From the NCBI GenBank assembly GCA_011620245.1, contig WOZN01000172.1, forward strand, positions 1 through 10,237: a stretch of DNA of 10,237 bases. Direction: 5' to 3'. The DNA comes from Acidovorax sp. (lineage in GTDB: Bacteria > Pseudomonadota > Gammaproteobacteria > Burkholderiales > Burkholderiaceae_C). A program made the position numbers and the translations under genes. Positions 1-10,003 of the stretch are shown one piece after another. The stretch's first letter is position 1; the number at the start of each line of letters is the position of its first letter. Under the pieces are notes generated by a model. That model ran no database searches. It was not told where the DNA came from and worked only from the letters and a program-made list of their open reading frames with translations.

Positions 1-15
1 AATCAAAGCGATGCG

Positions 16-303: not shown

Positions 304-1656
304 CTACAGCAGGCGCGGCTGCACTACGGTGACATCCACCGCGCCATCGGCCAGCGTGGCGCGCAGGGCATCGCCCGGCTGCGCCTGGCGCACGCTGGTG
401 ACAGCCTGGCCCGCCATGTCGGTCAACAGCGCATAGCCCCGCTGCAGCACCAGACGCGGATCGAGCAACTCCAGCCGCAGGGCAGCGCGCTCGAGCCGCT
501 CGGCATGGAGTGCCAACTGTCGTTGCAGTTTTTCGGGCAAATCGGCCTCCAGCGCTTGCTGGGTATGCGCAAGCAGCTGCATTTTCAATAGCAATCCGTG
601 GCGCATGCGCTGGGCCAGGCGCGCCAGTTGCATCTGCTGGCGGGCCGCGATGCCCGAGGGGCGGCCCAGGCGAGCGGCGGCCTGGTCCAGGCGCTGGTGG
701 CGGGCGTCAAGCTGGCGCTGCATTGCGTCGGCCAGCCGGCCCGCCAGCAGCCCCAGCGCCCCCAGCCACACCTCGCGCGGCTGGGCCACCAGCTCGGCCG
801 CCGCCGTGGGCGTGGGCGCGCGCAGGTCGGCGCAGAAATCGGCAATGGTGAAATCGGTTTCGTGCCCCACGCCGCAGATCAGCGGCACCGGGCTTTGCAC
901 GATGGTGCGCGCGAGCTGTTCATCGTTGAAGGCCCAGAGGTCTTCCATCGACCCGCCGCCGCGCACCAGCAGGATCACATCGATTGCAGGATTCTGAGCC
1001 GAATCAGCCCCTGGCGCTTGTCCAGCCTGCGCCAGCAGATACAGTTTTGATAGCGCCGAGACGAGTGCCTGTGGTGCGGCAACCCCCTGCACCTGCGCCG
1101 GCACCAGCACCACCGGGATATGCGGCACCCGGCGGCGCAAGGCCGTCACCACATCGTGCAACGCCGCCGCGCCCGGCGATGTGACCAGGCCGATGCCCCG
1201 TGGCAGCAGTGGCAGGGGGCGCTTGCGCGCTGCATCAAAAAGGCCCTCGCCTTCCAGTTGCGCCTTCAGCCGCAAGAATTGCTCGAACAGCGCGCCCTGC
1301 CCCGCGCGCTGCATGCTCTCGACGATGAATTGCAGGTCACCTCGGGCCTCGTACACGCCGATGCGCCCGCGCAGCTCCACCAGTTCGCCATCGCGCGGCG
1401 AAAAGTCAAGCAGGCTGGCCGCGCGGCGGAACATGGCGCAACGCAACTGGCCGCTCGCATCTTTCACCGAGAAGTAGCAATGCCCGCTGGATGCGCGCGA
1501 AAAGCCCGTGATCTCGCCGCGCACCGCCACCGGGTTGAATCGGGCCTCCAGCGCATCAGCAATGGCGCGGCACAGCGCGCCAACTTCCCAGATACGTGGC
1601 GTCGCTACAAGGGTTGACTGCTCAGGCATGAGACCGGACCAGCGTTTGCAGGCCAT
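304..1656 (-). CDS. xseA: Exodeoxyribonuclease VII large subunit
   Basis: Large subunit of exonuclease VII, which with several XseB subunits degrades single-stranded DNA in both directions to acid-soluble oligonucleotides in the cytoplasm. The protein has 450 residues, close to the 456 of E. coli. Residues about 19-115 form the N-terminal OB-fold (GEITGF, SSGHCYFSVKD). The catalytic core is clear: GLVTSPGAAALHDV (156-169), RGGGSMEDLWAFND (232-245), GHETDFTIADF (264-274) and RAPTPTAAAEL (279-289). A long helical, probably coiled-coil, region follows (about 295-395), then the conserved C-terminal stretch LDPRLVLQRGYAL. Compared with E. coli there are about 14 extra residues before the RGGGS motif, exactly where a repeat copy lies. 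The start is uncertain: the ATG at 1656 has GGGGA only two bases upstream, while Met10 (1629-1627) gives a more typical N-terminus. xseB is not in the window. Confidence 0.95.
   Translation of the reverse strand: MACKRWSGLMPEQSTLVATPRIWEVGALCRAIADALEARFNPVAVRGEITGFSRASSGHCYFSVKDASGQLRCAMFRRAASLLDFSPRDGELVELRGRIGVYEARGDLQFIVESMQRAGQGALFEQFLRLKAQLEGEGLFDAARKRPLPLLPRGIGLVTSPGAAALHDVVTALRRRVPHIPVVLVPAQVQGVAAPQALVSALSKLYLLAQAGQAPGADSAQNPAIDVILLVRGGGSMEDLWAFNDEQLARTIVQSPVPLICGVGHETDFTIADFCADLRAPTPTAAAELVAQPREVWLGALGLLAGRLADAMQRQLDARHQRLDQAAARLGRPSGIAARQQMQLARLAQRMRHGLLLKMQLLAHTQQALEADLPEKLQRQLALHAERLERAALRLELLDPRLVLQRGYALLTDMAGQAVTSVRQAQPGDALRATLADGAVDVTVVQPRLL
538..592 (-). repeat. Intragenic 55-base repeat, copy A (in xseA)
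   Basis: Read on the minus strand it begins GCTATTGAAAATGC and carries the core TTGCGC, then AAGCGC, then GGCCGATTTG. It aligns without gaps to copy B in the same gene at 38 of 55 positions by eye. It is translated in the sense direction as XseA residues 356-373 (LLKMQLLAHTQQALEADL), inside the helical region. Confidence 0.5.
1000..1054 (-). repeat. Intragenic 55-base repeat, copy B (in xseA)
   Basis: Read on the minus strand it begins GCTATCAAAACTG and carries CTGGCGCA, ACAAGCGC and GGCTGATTCG at the same spacing as copy A. It encodes XseA residues 202-219 (LSKLYLLAQAGQAPGADS) in the same reading frame as copy A. It coincides with a stretch where this protein is about 14 residues longer than E. 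coli XseA, just before the RGGGS motif. Confidence 0.6.
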
Positions 1657-3116: not shown

Positions 3117-4187
3117 ATGGCTTCCGCCGGGCCGCAGCCGCCCTCGCCTTCTGCCGCCGCTGCCCCGGCCATGGGTAGCCAGCAGCCCACCGGCTTGGCC
3201 CGCATCTGGCGCTCCCGCGGGCCTGCGGCCTGGGCCTTGTGGCCACTGTCGCTGGCCTACGGTGCGCTGGTGGCATTGCGGCGCTGGCTGTACCGGCTGC
3301 GCGTGCTGCGCAGCGAACACCCCGGCCCGCCCGTCATCGTGGTGGGCAATGTGATTGCCGGCGGCGCGGGCAAGACCCCCGTGGTGATAGCCCTGGTGCG
3401 GCATTTGCAGGCGCAGGGCTGGCAGCCGGGCGTCATCTCGCGCGGCTATGGCCGCAGCACCCACGACTGCCGCGCGGTGCAGCCCGACAGCCCGGCCCGG
3501 GAAGCGGGGGACGAACCCGCCCTGATCGCCCGCGCCACCCATGCGCCCGTTTTTGTGGCACCCCGGCGCATCACCGCGGCGCGCGCGCTGCTGGCCGCGC
3601 ACCCCGGCACCGATATCCTGGTGTGCGACGATGGCCTGCAGCACCTGGCGCTGGCGCGTGACCTGGAAATCTGCGTCTTCAACAGCGACGGTGTGGGCAA
3701 CGGCTTTCTGCTGCCCGCAGGCCCCCTGCGCGAACCCTGGCCGCGCCATGTGGACTGGGTGCTGCATGCCGGCCAGGCCCCCGCCGGGCCCGCCCCGAGT
3801 TTTGCGCTGCAGCGCCGGCTGGCGCCCCATGCAATGCGCGCGGATGGCCGGCAGGTGCCGCTGGCATCCCTGCGTGGCGGCCCGGTGCATGCCGTGGCGG
3901 CAATCGCCCGGCCCGAAGAATTCTTCGCCATGCTGCGGGCGCAAGGCCTGCAGCTGGCAAGTGCCGAGGCGCTTCCAGACCACTATGATTTCAATAGCTG
4001 GAAGCGCTTTACTGATAAGTGTATGACCCTGATTTGTACCGAAAAAGACGCCGTAAAACTCTGGCCGCTGCACCCCGATGCACTGGCCGTGCCGCTGGAG
4101 CTGGAGGTCGATCCCGCCTTCCTGACGGCACTGGATGCCCGGCTCTCGGCCTGGCGGGACGCGCCGCTATCATCCCCCTGTGCCTGA
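3117..4187 (+). CDS. lpxK: Tetraacyldisaccharide 4'-kinase (lipid A biosynthesis)
   Basis: LpxK phosphorylates the 4' position of the tetraacyldisaccharide 1-phosphate to give lipid IVA, the sixth step of lipid A synthesis, at the cytoplasmic face of the inner membrane. The homologous region begins at [22 protein letters not shown], the membrane-associated N-terminal helix. The P-loop is [16 protein letters not shown]; further family motifs are [33 protein letters not shown] and, near the C-terminus, TEKDAVKLW. The start is uncertain. ATG 3117 (356 residues) adds a non-conserved Ala/Pro-rich leader; ATG 3171 would give 338 residues, nearer the usual length; an upstream ATG at 3054 overlaps exbD and is unlikely. 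None has a good ribosome binding site. A lower-GC segment near the 3' end coincides with a repeat copy (3983-4037). ycaR follows after 18 bases. Confidence 0.93.
3983..4037 (+). repeat. Intragenic 55-base repeat, copy D (in lpxK)
   Basis: Begins CTATGATTTCAATAGC, matching the left end of copy C (CTATTTTTTCAATAGC) at 14 of 16 positions. GCGCTT and AAGTG follow where the other copies have GCGCTT and AAGCG. It is read in the sense direction within lpxK, in a different frame from the xseA copies, and encodes the segment [17 protein letters not shown] just before TEKDAVKL. The stretch is clearly AT-richer than the surrounding gene. Confidence 0.45.
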
Positions 4188-6065: not shown

Positions 6066-7019
6066 TCAAGGCAGCAGCTCCAGCATCAGCGAGATACGTG
6101 CCTTCACCGGAGACAAGCCCCGGGAATCCGGTAATGCATCACCGGGCTTGGGCAACACCTGCCCTTGCGGGCAGCGCGTGGAACGCACCACCTTCACACC
6201 AGCCGCCTGCGCACGCAGCAATGCCGATTCGAGGGCATGGTGAATCGCGCCATTGCCCGTGGCGGCCACCACGATGCCCTGCACGCCATCGCGCACCAGC
6301 GAGTTCACCAGGGCACCGGTGGCACCGGCATAGCTCATGACGATCTCGACGCGCGGCCATCGCGCGCAATTCACTATTTTTTCAATAGCAGGTTGCGCTT
6401 GCCCCGAAAGCGCCGAAGGCCAATTCTGTGCCAAACGCACCGCCCCCTCCTCCACCCAGCCCAACGGTCCGGCATCGCCAGAGTTGAACGCATCCACGCG
6501 GTAGGGGTGCACTTTCTGTACGCGCTGCGCACCATGCACCACGCCGGCCGCCACCACCACAACACCCTGGGCGCCCACGGTCGTCGCCACGGCGACGGCA
6601 TCCAGCAGATTCTGCGGACCATCGGGCGTCAATGCCGTTGCTGGGCGCATCGCGCAGGTCAGCACCACCGGTTTACGGGCATCCAGCACGGAGCGCAAGA
6701 ACCATGCGGTCTCTTCCAGCGTGTCGGTGCCGTGGGTGATGACAAGGCCGCGCACCCCAGGATCGGCGAGCGCGCTGGCACAACGCTTTGCAAGTGCGCT
6801 CCACACGCTGAACTCCATGTCCTTGCTGTCCAGCTGCGCGATCTGCTCGGCCAACAGGTCACCGCCCGCTGCTGCCTTCAGGCCAGGTACGGCATGCAAC
6901 AACTGCTCGACACCTACCTGCGCGGCGGCGTAGCCAATGTTGTCTCCCGCAGTGGCCGCTTTGCCGGCGATGGTTCCGCCCGTCCCCAAAACCACAATTT
7001 TTTGCCCGCTCACTTGCAT
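6066..7019 (-). CDS. L-asparaginase (type II-like fold, cytoplasmic)
   Basis: Hydrolyses L-asparagine to aspartate and ammonia. The 317-residue protein aligns with E. coli AnsB by eye: VLGTGGTIAG with nucleophile Thr16, Tyr30, Ser65 in LDSKDM, ITHGTDTLEETAWFL with Thr98 and Asp99, AMRPATALTPDGPQNL (123-138), Lys169 and VHPYRVDAFNSGDAGPLGW. The AnsB-like active-site residues Thr, Tyr, Ser, Thr, Asp and Lys are all in place. There is no signal peptide, so a cytoplasmic location is expected. Two starts compete: ATG 7019 has AAAGG directly against it, whereas the GTG two codons later (7013-7011) has the better spacing. An SOS box ends 12 bases before the ATG, so it may share control with divergent lexA. 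Residues 198-216, in the loop between the two domains, are encoded by an antisense repeat copy. Confidence 0.93.
   Translation of the reverse strand: MQVSGQKIVVLGTGGTIAGKAATAGDNIGYAAAQVGVEQLLHAVPGLKAAAGGDLLAEQIAQLDSKDMEFSVWSALAKRCASALADPGVRGLVITHGTDTLEETAWFLRSVLDARKPVVLTCAMRPATALTPDGPQNLLDAVAVATTVGAQGVVVVAAGVVHGAQRVQKVHPYRVDAFNSGDAGPLGWVEEGAVRLAQNWPSALSGQAQPAIEKIVNCARWPRVEIVMSYAGATGALVNSLVRDGVQGIVVAATGNGAIHHALESALLRAQAAGVKVVRSTRCPQGQVLPKPGDALPDSRGLSPVKARISLMLELLP
6374..6428 (+). repeat. Intragenic 55-base repeat, copy C (antisense in asparaginase gene)
   Basis: Read on the plus strand it begins CTATTTTTTCAATAGC, then GGTTGCGCTTGCCCC, GAAAGCGC and GAAGGCCAATT. It shares spacing and core words TTGCGC, AAGCGC and GGCC with copy A and its left end with copy D. 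The gene runs on the other strand, so the repeat is translated from its complementary strand as residues 198-216 (QNWPSALSGQAQPAIEKIV), a variable linker between conserved blocks. Confidence 0.5.
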
Positions 7020-7080: not shown

Positions 7081-7188
7081 TCTCAGATATCTCATCCCAT
7101 CCGTTCGGGCTGAGCCTGTCGAAGCCGGGGCACTGCTTGGGTGCGGCCCTTCGACAGGCTCAGGGCGAACGGGTTTTATCTCAGATAT
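7081..7188. repeat. Palindromic dispersed repeat flanked by 10-bp direct repeats
   Basis: The arms at 7101-7124 and 7149-7172 are 24 bases each and are reverse complements except for two positions (core words GAGCCTGTCGAAG and CTTCGACAGGCTC), around a 24-base loop. The words TGAGCCTGTCGAAG and CTTCGACAGGCTCA are ones I remember from repeats scattered through many betaproteobacterial and other proteobacterial genomes. TCTCAGATAT occurs at 7081-7090 and again at 7179-7188, bracketing the palindrome like a target duplication. The element lies between the SOS boxes and the lexA start, so it is probably in the lexA 5' leader or promoter. Confidence 0.75.
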
Positions 7189-8606: not shown

Positions 8607-9614
8607 ATGAATATTGTGATTCTGGATGACTATCAGGACGCGGTGCGCAAACTCCATTGTGCAAGCCGGCTCGATCCCTATGCTGCGAAGGTCTATACCA
8701 ACACGGTGAAAGGTCAGGGACAACTGGCCGTGCGCCTGAAGGATGCAGACATCATCGTGCTGGTGCGTGAACGCACCCAGATCACGCGCCAGTTGGTCGA
8801 GAAGCTGCCTCGGCTGAAGCTGATTGCCCAAACCGGCAGGATCGGTAGCCATATCGATGTGACAGCCTGCACCGAACGCGGCATTGCCGTGGCGGAGGGG
8901 GTCAGTTCACCCGTCGCGCCTGCCGAACTGACCTGGGCCCTGGTAATGGCAGCCATGCGGCGATTGCCGCAATACATTGCCAATCTCAAGCACGGCGCCT
9001 GGCAGCAGTCCGGCCTCAAGGCGGCTTCCATGCCGCCAAACTTCTGTCTCGGCAGTGTGTTGCGAGGAAAAACACTGGGCATATGGGGCTATGGCCGTAT
9101 CGGTCAACTGGTGGCGGGTTACGGCCGCGCATTTGGCATGAACGTGCGCGTATGGGGTCGGGAGGCCTCCCGCGCCCAGGCCCTGACCGACGGATACCAG
9201 GCTGCCACCAACCGGGAAGAGTTTTTCTCGCAATGCGATGTGCTGTCTCTTCACCTGCGGCTCAATGAAGAGACCCGGGGCATCATTTCACTGGAAGACC
9301 TTTCGTGCATGAAGCCCACTGCGCTGCTGGTCAATACCTCGCGCGCTGAATTGATCGAGCCCGATGCCCTGATTGCGGCCCTGAACCGCGGACGCCCTGG
9401 TCTGGCCGCTGTGGATGTATTTGAGAGCGAACCCATCCTGCAAGGCCACGCCTTGCTGCGCCTGGAAAACTGCATCTGCACGCCCCACATTGGTTATGTC
9501 GAGCAGGACAGCTATGAGCTGTATTTCGGTGCGGCCTTCGATAACGTAGTGAACTACATCAAGGGCACGCCCACGAATATCGTAAACCCGGGGGCGCTGC
9601 AGGTTCGGCGCTGA
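8607..9614 (+). CDS. D-isomer specific 2-hydroxyacid dehydrogenase family protein
   Basis: NAD(P)-dependent oxidoreductase of the family that includes D-3-phosphoglycerate, glycerate and hydroxypyruvate dehydrogenases. It has 335 residues. The substrate-binding part contains KLIAQTGRIGSHIDV (71-85), then GIAVAEGVSSPVAPAELTW (92-110). The Rossmann fold shows LRGKTLGIWGYGRIGQLVA (152-170). The catalytic set is intact: Arg246 in VNTSRAELI, Glu275 in DVFESEP, and His294 in TPHIGYVE; the 29-residue gap between Arg and Glu equals that in E. coli SerA. There is no ACT domain, so it is not full-length SerA. The exact substrate cannot be read from sequence. ATG 8607 is chosen because the protein then starts MNIVILDDYQDAV, typical of this subgroup; the ribosome binding site is poor (AAGG well upstream, GGCGGG adjacent). 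Confidence 0.9.
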   Translation: MNIVILDDYQDAVRKLHCASRLDPYAAKVYTNTVKGQGQLAVRLKDADIIVLVRERTQITRQLVEKLPRLKLIAQTGRIGSHIDVTACTERGIAVAEGVSSPVAPAELTWALVMAAMRRLPQYIANLKHGAWQQSGLKAASMPPNFCLGSVLRGKTLGIWGYGRIGQLVAGYGRAFGMNVRVWGREASRAQALTDGYQAATNREEFFSQCDVLSLHLRLNEETRGIISLEDLSCMKPTALLVNTSRAELIEPDALIAALNRGRPGLAAVDVFESEPILQGHALLRLENCICTPHIGYVEQDSYELYFGAAFDNVVNYIKGTPTNIVNPGALQVRR

Positions 9615-9655: not shown

Positions 9656-10003
9656 ATCGGGATAGGGGGCGGCCACAATGACCGCGCCCCTCCCACGCCA
9701 CCCGGCATGCGGGTCCGCACCGGGCGGTTGCCATGGTTGAGGTCGGTCCGACTTGTAGCTTGCAGTTACCCGACCCGACGCCCAGGCTCGCCTCGTCCCA
9801 GTTCGGCGGAATTGATTCCTCACTGCCACGGCCTTTCGGGCTTCACCCTATTCACCACTGTGGCGAGCTTCGCTGACGCGAACATCTGAGTCCTTTCTCT
9901 TCCGATAACCCTGGTCTTACTGTGCCACTGATGTTACGCAGCCGCCCTGAACAGCTGAAGCTGGGCGTAGGCGGTGCGCGATGCGCACATCACGTCCGCG
10001 CAC
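9656..10003 (-). mobile_element. ORF-less group II intron remnant
   Basis: On the minus strand this stretch ends like a bacterial group II intron. A domain V-like hairpin pairs CCGCCCGG with CCGGGTGG (plus 9698-9705 and 9720-9727), with an upper stem TGCG/CGCA and a two-base bulge. A domain VI-like stem follows (plus about 9657-9694), with an unpaired A eight bases from the 3' end in the terminal sequence CTATCCCGAT. The rest resembles domain I sequence of such introns as I remember it (for example GGGTGAAGCCCGAAAGGCC). The 5' end is placed at a GTGCG (10003); another GTGCG occurs at 9988. At about 348 bases with no reverse-transcriptase ORF it is too short to be complete, so an internal deletion is likely. 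It lies 13 bases downstream of the dsbG-like stop codon, in the same direction. Confidence 0.6.

Follow-up and report, generated by a model that had tools for sequence, protein, structure and literature searches.

The window studied here, a 10,237-nt Acidovorax sequence taken as a whole, carries repeats in its xseA, lpxK, and asparaginase genes that are members of a motif family of about 65 nt found across many Comamonadaceae chromosomes. We read these repeats, with a probability of about 0.45, as a long DNA recognition motif that would be maintained sequence-specifically, by analogy with the DNA uptake sequences of natural transformation (DUS in Neisseriaceae, USS in Pasteurellaceae). The motif may be a tag for the recognition of own DNA. 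A trans-acting DNA-binding factor would read it, better-matching DNA would be favoured in homologous exchange, and copies would arise and persist in this way; the motif would then act like a DNA uptake sequence, the uptake step being proposed purely by analogy, and the xseA copies would be recognition motifs sitting where the gene tolerates them. This explanation was preferred because of the copy excess, the constraint on the core, the lineage dialects, the lpxK site without an indel, the departure from host codon usage, and the scarcity on plasmids. The main rival is a chromosome-organizing protein, and a small mobile element comes next.

The sequence-only reading had started from two minus-strand segments of the window, 538-592 and 1000-1054; their ungapped alignment was confirmed, with 38 of 55 columns identical in the same reading frame of the xseA ORF. 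The best in-frame 55-nt self-match of xseA is this value of 38, whereas 200 codon-shuffled versions of the gene gave a mean of 32.7 and a maximum of 36, so that the repeat exceeds the controls and is not due to chance. The four copies claimed for the window were likewise recovered by R1, a sequence-only model of 67 positions built from 18 copies with the window copies excluded. The training copies were drawn from 20 of the 22 places of the word AGCGCNAGAGGCC and all share that exact word. The R1 matches confirm the repeat, extend it beyond 55 bases, and place four copies in the window; the fifth-ranked match (E 0.0086) was the reverse strand of one of the four.

Copies A (530..594, minus strand; 43.5 bits, E 1.8e-13) and B (995..1054, minus strand; 25.2 bits, E 8.7e-8) lie in frame in xseA, at residues ~355-375 and ~201-220, respectively, and copy B sits ahead of the IDVILLVRGGGS segment of XseA. 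Their host is a 450-aa ORF at 304..1656 on the minus strand (TIGR00237, E 3.4e-124). Copy C (3983..4019, plus strand; 19.6 bits, E 4.9e-6) comprises the 5' two thirds of the motif and encodes, in the sense direction, a 10-residue segment of LpxK, whose gene occupies 3171..4187 on the plus strand with an uncertain start codon (TIGR00682, E 3.2e-62). Copy D (6373..6426, plus strand; 30.5 bits, E 2.1e-9) is antisense in a type II asparaginase-like gene at 6066..7019 on the minus strand (TIGR00520, E 4.2e-76, under the model cut-off).

The Acidovorax consensus is approximately TTGCTAYTnATTTnATAGCTGCnAGCGCTTn7AAGCGCTAGAGGCCAATTTGaCTcAAAt. Its information extends across about 60 positions with no short core, and GC content ranged from 33 to 64% in a set of 140 copies. 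In the source genome (2.5 Mb, 72% complete), AGCGCNAGAGGCC occurs 22 times and its reversal 0 times, and the best 150 of 1784 first-pass R1 candidates all had E values of 3e-7 or lower. A strict core, AGCGCTT-N7-AAGCGC-N-AGAGGCC with at most 3 mismatches, which spans 28 nt, gave 171 matches in the same genome compared to 0 for the reversed pattern. Within the genus, 41 of 47 genomes had 19-726 strict matches and six had 2-4 (reversed controls 0-3). Across the family, 33 of 250 genomes had 14-606 strict matches and the remainder at most 6, with reversed controls up to 14. In 146 genomes from other families of the order there was no excess, the highest count being 5 and the highest control 13. 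Both the family and the order surveys used the Acidovorax dialect and therefore under-count the other dialects. Forward and reverse strand counts were similar. Match counts were uneven within genera (451/15/89 in one and 229/0 in another), partly because of dialect: one genome, G146, had 15 strict matches and 69 matches to the common 5' half. At three sites (G187:C12:9610-9649, G301:C7:272363-272402, and G303:C2:132810-132849), head-to-head motif 5' halves (ATAGCTGCTAGCGC...GCGC.AGCAGCTAT) build bigger palindromes. Beside one motif copy lies another dispersed repeat, ~118 bp long, whose two places (G000:C160 at ~9341-9458, in L138, and G000:C399:3436-3553) share 94% identity.

The positions of 215 copies were analyzed in 1.62 Mb from six genomes: the window together with contigs of its own genome selected for carrying copies, G285, G274, G252, G275, and G261. 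In 800 kb of the last two, the forward motif was found 86 times and the reversed motif 0 times. Only 47 of the 215 copies were genic, though coding DNA makes up 88%, "genic" being approximate since genes were predicted with a home-made codon-score finder. The copies lie mainly between genes or at gene ends, and the window is unusual in that all four of its copies are genic. Regions between divergent genes were depleted, with 20 of 162 non-genic copies compared to 23% of intergenic bases (P 4e-4). Relative to the closest 3' gene end, 72 copies pointed the same way and 70 the opposite way, a distribution without bias.

The genic copies comprised 26 sense and 21 antisense copies and used several frames. 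Translation of copies within genes, as originally read in xseA, was thus observed, in both orientations; the further suggestion that the repeat survives by being translated, in the manner of the Rickettsia palindromic elements, was not supported by the same counts. The likeness to those elements is a repeat that lies in frame within genes as well as between them; the differences are the lpxK motif without length change, the following of dialects, and an insertion that is putative here. Genic copies produced recurring peptides (IAASA...SARGQF and LLALA.QALEA; antisense MASSAY.SSASSY and NWPLAL), and the motif explains these recurrent odd peptides of annotated proteins. GC at third codon positions was 335/878 (0.38) within genic copies compared to 22484/26719 (0.84) elsewhere in the same genes and was lower in 47 of 47. 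Genic copies therefore depart from the codon usage of their hosts.

The core columns of the motif were conserved between related genomes, changing more than 4-fold less than loop columns. Across 12 pairs of orthologous copies from G274 and G252, high-information columns differed at 10 of 251 positions compared to 29 of 162 for low-information columns (Fisher P 3e-6). Between G085 and G285, the values were 2 of 281 and 8 of 174 (Fisher P 0.008; 14 pairs, one skipped as misaligned). One partner's score decided which copies entered the test; a fairer neutral expectation is therefore half the low-column rate, and against it the P values were 0.002 and 0.04, respectively. The core is kept by selection or by a biased process, and not as a hairpin.

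The consensus folds into three hairpins and contains internal palindromes, and a few orthologous pairs showed apparently compensatory changes; however, a hairpin element was rejected on the 140 copies, which carried no covariation. The covariation score was 0.060 compared to 0.067 for shuffles, 482 of 500 shuffles scored as high or higher, and paired cells across the copies scored no higher than shuffles. A structured RNA or a terminator-like hairpin would fit the consensus fold, the closeness of copies to genes, and the depletion of divergent regions. It is strongly disfavoured by the missing covariation, the even orientation toward gene 3' ends, the antisense genic copies, and the lack of an Rfam match at the motif copies of the window.

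Copies were mostly shared between related genomes. In G085 and G285, whose main blocks are 95-99% identical (about 98%), all 15 alignable G085 copies were common to both, as were 15 of 16 alignable G285 copies, the exception being a weak copy without a length difference. In G274 and G252 (89.6% identity over 105 kb), 14 of 15 were common and one was absent with a 70-base difference; in the reverse direction 14 of 14 were common. These counts exclude copies without alignable flanks, numbering 1 and 7 for the first pair and 8 and 16 for the second. Overall, 29 of 30 alignable copies were shared at ~98% and 90% identity.

Length changes at motif sites were mixed. At xseA site A, an orthologous copy was scored in 8 of 13 other Acidovorax-set loci, and the remaining 5 showed no length difference. 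Site B is 14-23 residues longer than in Polaromonas XseA (14 in the window). The comparison of XseA orthologues thus showed a length gain at copy B, with Polaromonas as the reference in place of the E. coli protein of the original reading, and at copy A it revealed presence and absence without any. lpxK is the clearest case: in most Comamonadaceae lineages its protein varies by no more than about one residue, whether the motif is present or absent. The asparaginase site of copy D had graded similarity in other Acidovorax at unchanged length; its NWP...AI segment occurs across most of the family, and some motif-poor lineages have a shorter segment. A formate dehydrogenase site was 48-57 or ~72 nt longer than in two motif-free genomes, and one intergenic site was 66-92 nt longer than in four of seven motif-free loci. 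Many other genic sites in Acidovorax showed presence/absence contrasts without a length difference, which on their own could be the decay of old insertions. On this mixed evidence, copies seem to arise partly by substitution and partly by gain of DNA.

These data bear on a small mobile element, similar to Rickettsia palindromic elements or MITEs, that was amplified once and is now mostly fixed, its core being constrained by recognition by a mobilizer. The high copy number, the abrupt differences between species of one genus, the length gains at xseA site B, formate dehydrogenase, and the intergenic site, the internal palindromes, and the copies within integron cassettes would all suit such an element. 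We nevertheless consider it quite unlikely, given the low turnover at 98% and 90% identity, the unchanged length of lpxK, the dialects followed at orthologous sites, the absence of copies from 250 kb of plasmid sequence, and a distribution of Y1 transposases unrelated to copy number. The description of the repeat as a mobile or amplified element accordingly holds for a genome-wide amplified family; its mobile part is only partly supported, insertion being indicated at the three sites with length gains and not at lpxK, and the shared copies, the dialects, and the empty plasmid stretches speak against mobility.

Y1 transposases were found in 44 of 47 genomes of the genus without relation to motif copy number: the three genomes lacking them are motif-rich, and the six motif-poor genomes all have them. 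REP sequences driven by RAYT transposases were rejected for this reason. The likeness to REP, as described in PMC3733652, lies in short dispersed repeats with internal palindromes mainly outside genes; here covariation is lacking, copy number is independent of Y1, and the consensus start has no GTAG or CGTC tag. G293, an Acidovorax genome, contains 37 Y1 matches, mostly of equal score, which suggests the recent spread of an IS200-type element.

The motif differs between lineages. They have the 5' half in common. The 3' half is spelled ..GCGCTTn7AAGCGCTAGAGGCC by Acidovorax, ..GCGCAATATCCACGGGGGCTAGAGGCC by Rhodoferax-type genomes, and ..GCGCATATTCCACGGGCGCTAGAGGCC by other genomes. A dialect score, Rhodoferax minus Acidovorax, was calculated for orthologues reaching at least 10 bits in either dialect, a filter that removes, among others, L060 and L061 at lpxK (+6.5 and -0.4). 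The Rhodoferax-type matrix consists of 50 rows chosen by eye, with rows unlike the motif and everything from G303 omitted. The lpxK, xseA B, and asparaginase sites could not train the matrices because the collecting pattern does not match them.

With P values that treat related orthologues as independent, the Acidovorax copies at lpxK scored -6.6 to -12.7 in 7 of 8 cases, with one at +4.7, and all 9 Rhodoferax-type copies scored +4.6 to +20.5 (P 0.0004); at xseA B, seven Acidovorax copies lay near zero at -7.1 to +4.7 and 8 of 9 others at +5.1 to +21.6, with one at -7.3 (P 0.004); and at the asparaginase site, 3 of 5 Acidovorax copies were negative and 5 of 6 others positive (P 0.026). No Rhodoferax-type copy scored at xseA A. 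Exceptions to the dialects were L062 at lpxK, L057, L062, and L073 at the asparaginase site, and L087 at xseA B. Two motif-free, GC-rich orthologues at lpxK, L063 and L064, also scored as Rhodoferax-like (+11.8 and +16.3), so the dialect test is meaningful only alongside the full motif score, which reached 34 bits in Rhodoferax-type lpxK under its own dialect. Between the dialects, the LpxK protein changes from QRLQYKRY to RNEYEGY. Orthologous genic copies therefore mostly follow the dialect of the host lineage, with exceptions, which would not be expected of fixed transposon relics. Whatever the reader, when sites in unrelated genes shift along with the lineage dialect, a trans-acting factor that selects on coding sequence is indicated.

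Copies were scarce in the plasmid DNA sampled. In five 50-kb stretches from two plasmids, one of Acidovorax and one of Diaphorobacter, a small sample, 0 copies reached 22 bits compared to 26 expected from the mean density of six chromosome segments rather than from the chromosomes of the plasmid hosts. BLAST located one and two motif places on the two plasmids, which are thus not motif-free. In a wider set, the 65-nt consensus matched 1779 of 72,556 plasmid records, mostly from Enterobacteriaceae. The matches inspected lie antisense in genes annotated "DUF1010 domain-containing protein" within integron cassettes by OXA-2 and aadA5; plasmid NZ_KJ541071.1 (L135), for example, has motif matches at 294-355 and 1488-1552. 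Both of its DUF1010 proteins match Pfam PF06231 starting at the motif-coded residues, and the antisense translation of one genomic copy matched the first 23 positions of PF06231 weakly (E 0.025, under the cut-off). The antisense-translated motif accounts for part of this Pfam domain. The C-terminal part of the protein presumably resembles a translated attC site. DUF1010 may be no real domain, and its cassettes may be derived from a Comamonadaceae-like host.

The hosts of genic copies were also compared. Eight of 31 examined genes, from 38 distinct hosts, function in repair, recombination, or DNA uptake: UvrA, UvrD, XseA, DnaE2, LigA, MutL, a RarA-like ATPase, and ComEC. DUS are enriched in genome-maintenance genes, and the category was picked with that literature in view. 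A control of 30 length-weighted random genes gave 2 (DnaG and HolC, both replication; P 0.045); neither the window nor genes truncated at 20-kb borders entered this control, and one control gene, cysN, itself has a copy. The P value was 0.003 if replication genes were discounted and 0.073 without xseA (7 compared to 2 of 30). The enrichment is therefore suggestive only. Within comEC, at ~1174000-1176600 of G275:C1 (L296:13945-16623), a copy lies in frame over 55 model positions with 53.8 bits. ComEC itself occurred in each of the 47 Acidovorax genomes, the six with only 2-4 matches among them, and its presence was set aside as uninformative. Copy spacing was even in G285 and G274, not even in G252 and G275, and clustered in G261. 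Even spacing was rejected as support for an uptake sequence, as only two of five segments showed it and the evidence from those two is related.

A site for chromosome architecture, segregation, or recombination would account for several of these findings: a nucleoid-type protein would bind the spaced blocks, selection for binding would hold the core, and the dialects would track the evolution of the protein. This rival agrees just as well with the constraint, the dialects, the occurrence on both strands, and the few copies on the plasmids sampled, and in the consensus the conserved blocks lie about a helical turn apart. A range of 2 to 726 copies within one genus would be odd for a house-keeping site, and the copies are clustered in one segment and even in others. 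Known sites of this type are much shorter. We regard such a site as unlikely.

Among known systems, DNA uptake sequences were judged, by analogy, to fit the recognition motif best. For DUS, PMC3630211, PMC2397512, and PMC12616744 report dialects, placement at permissive positions, and a lack of copies in recently acquired DNA. According to the same papers, DUS are up to ~13 nt long and USS consist of a 9-nt core with flanks. The present motif resembles these systems in abundant copies on both strands, restriction to a family, dialects that follow phylogeny, permissive positions, low occurrence in acquired DNA, and motif-free species within the family. It differs from them in its length (~65 nt compared to ~10-30) and in having hundreds of copies rather than thousands. 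Its length, the irregular spacing, the copies with length gains, the dialect exceptions, and the occurrence of ComEC even in motif-poor genomes count against the uptake reading.

The Betaproteobacterial repeat element (BRE), in the part of PMC3110155 that describes it, is ~90 bp long with 69% GC and often tandem; it shares with the motif dispersal in several Comamonadaceae and some genic copies. BRE was rejected on that description, the present motif being ~65 nt, 33-64% GC, and dispersed. Pieces of the motif were probably tabulated earlier. In PMC5217627 (2017), spaced motifs are listed as potential novel motifs and left unexplained in its motif section: GCTTAT(N)5AAGCG in Acidovorax ebreus TPSY, with 114 copies of which 107 are intergenic, and ATAGCT(N)22CAAAAG in Polaromonas naphthalenivorans CJ2, with 125 copies of which 101 are intergenic. 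In both species the copies lie near genes, and in A. ebreus few are found between divergent genes (4 of 107). Judging by their letters, we take the spaced pairs for fragments of the present motif from two dialects. The motif section of that paper names neither a family nor a full length, dialects, or a mechanism, and our literature search found no description that joins the pieces, describes the motif family, or gives a function.

A 2013 paper (PMC3630211) calls the need for an uptake sequence unique to Neisseria and Pasteurellaceae. Our tentative extension of the recognition-motif reading is a third, independently evolved uptake-sequence system in Comamonadaceae, with a ~65-nt motif, genus dialects that would rewrite lpxK and xseA, and relics in the integron cassettes of clinical plasmids; stretches of genes would be rewritten as the specificity of the reader changes. 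If true, this would be a third distinct uptake system, and its environmental hosts, with their several dialects and numerous sequenced species, would allow ideas on drive, selection, and receptor co-evolution to be tested by replication.

Two further features of the window were recorded. An inverted repeat at 7101-7172, CCGTTCGGGCTGAGCCTGTCGAAG / CTTCGACAGGCTCAGGGCGAACGG, with 22 of 24 positions complementary and a 24-base gap, separates the asparaginase and lexA-like genes and has no relation to the motif. Close to the window end, 9656-9729 on the minus strand matched the Rfam group II intron model RF00029 with 38.1 bits, compared to a gathering threshold of 40, and is likely an intron remnant.
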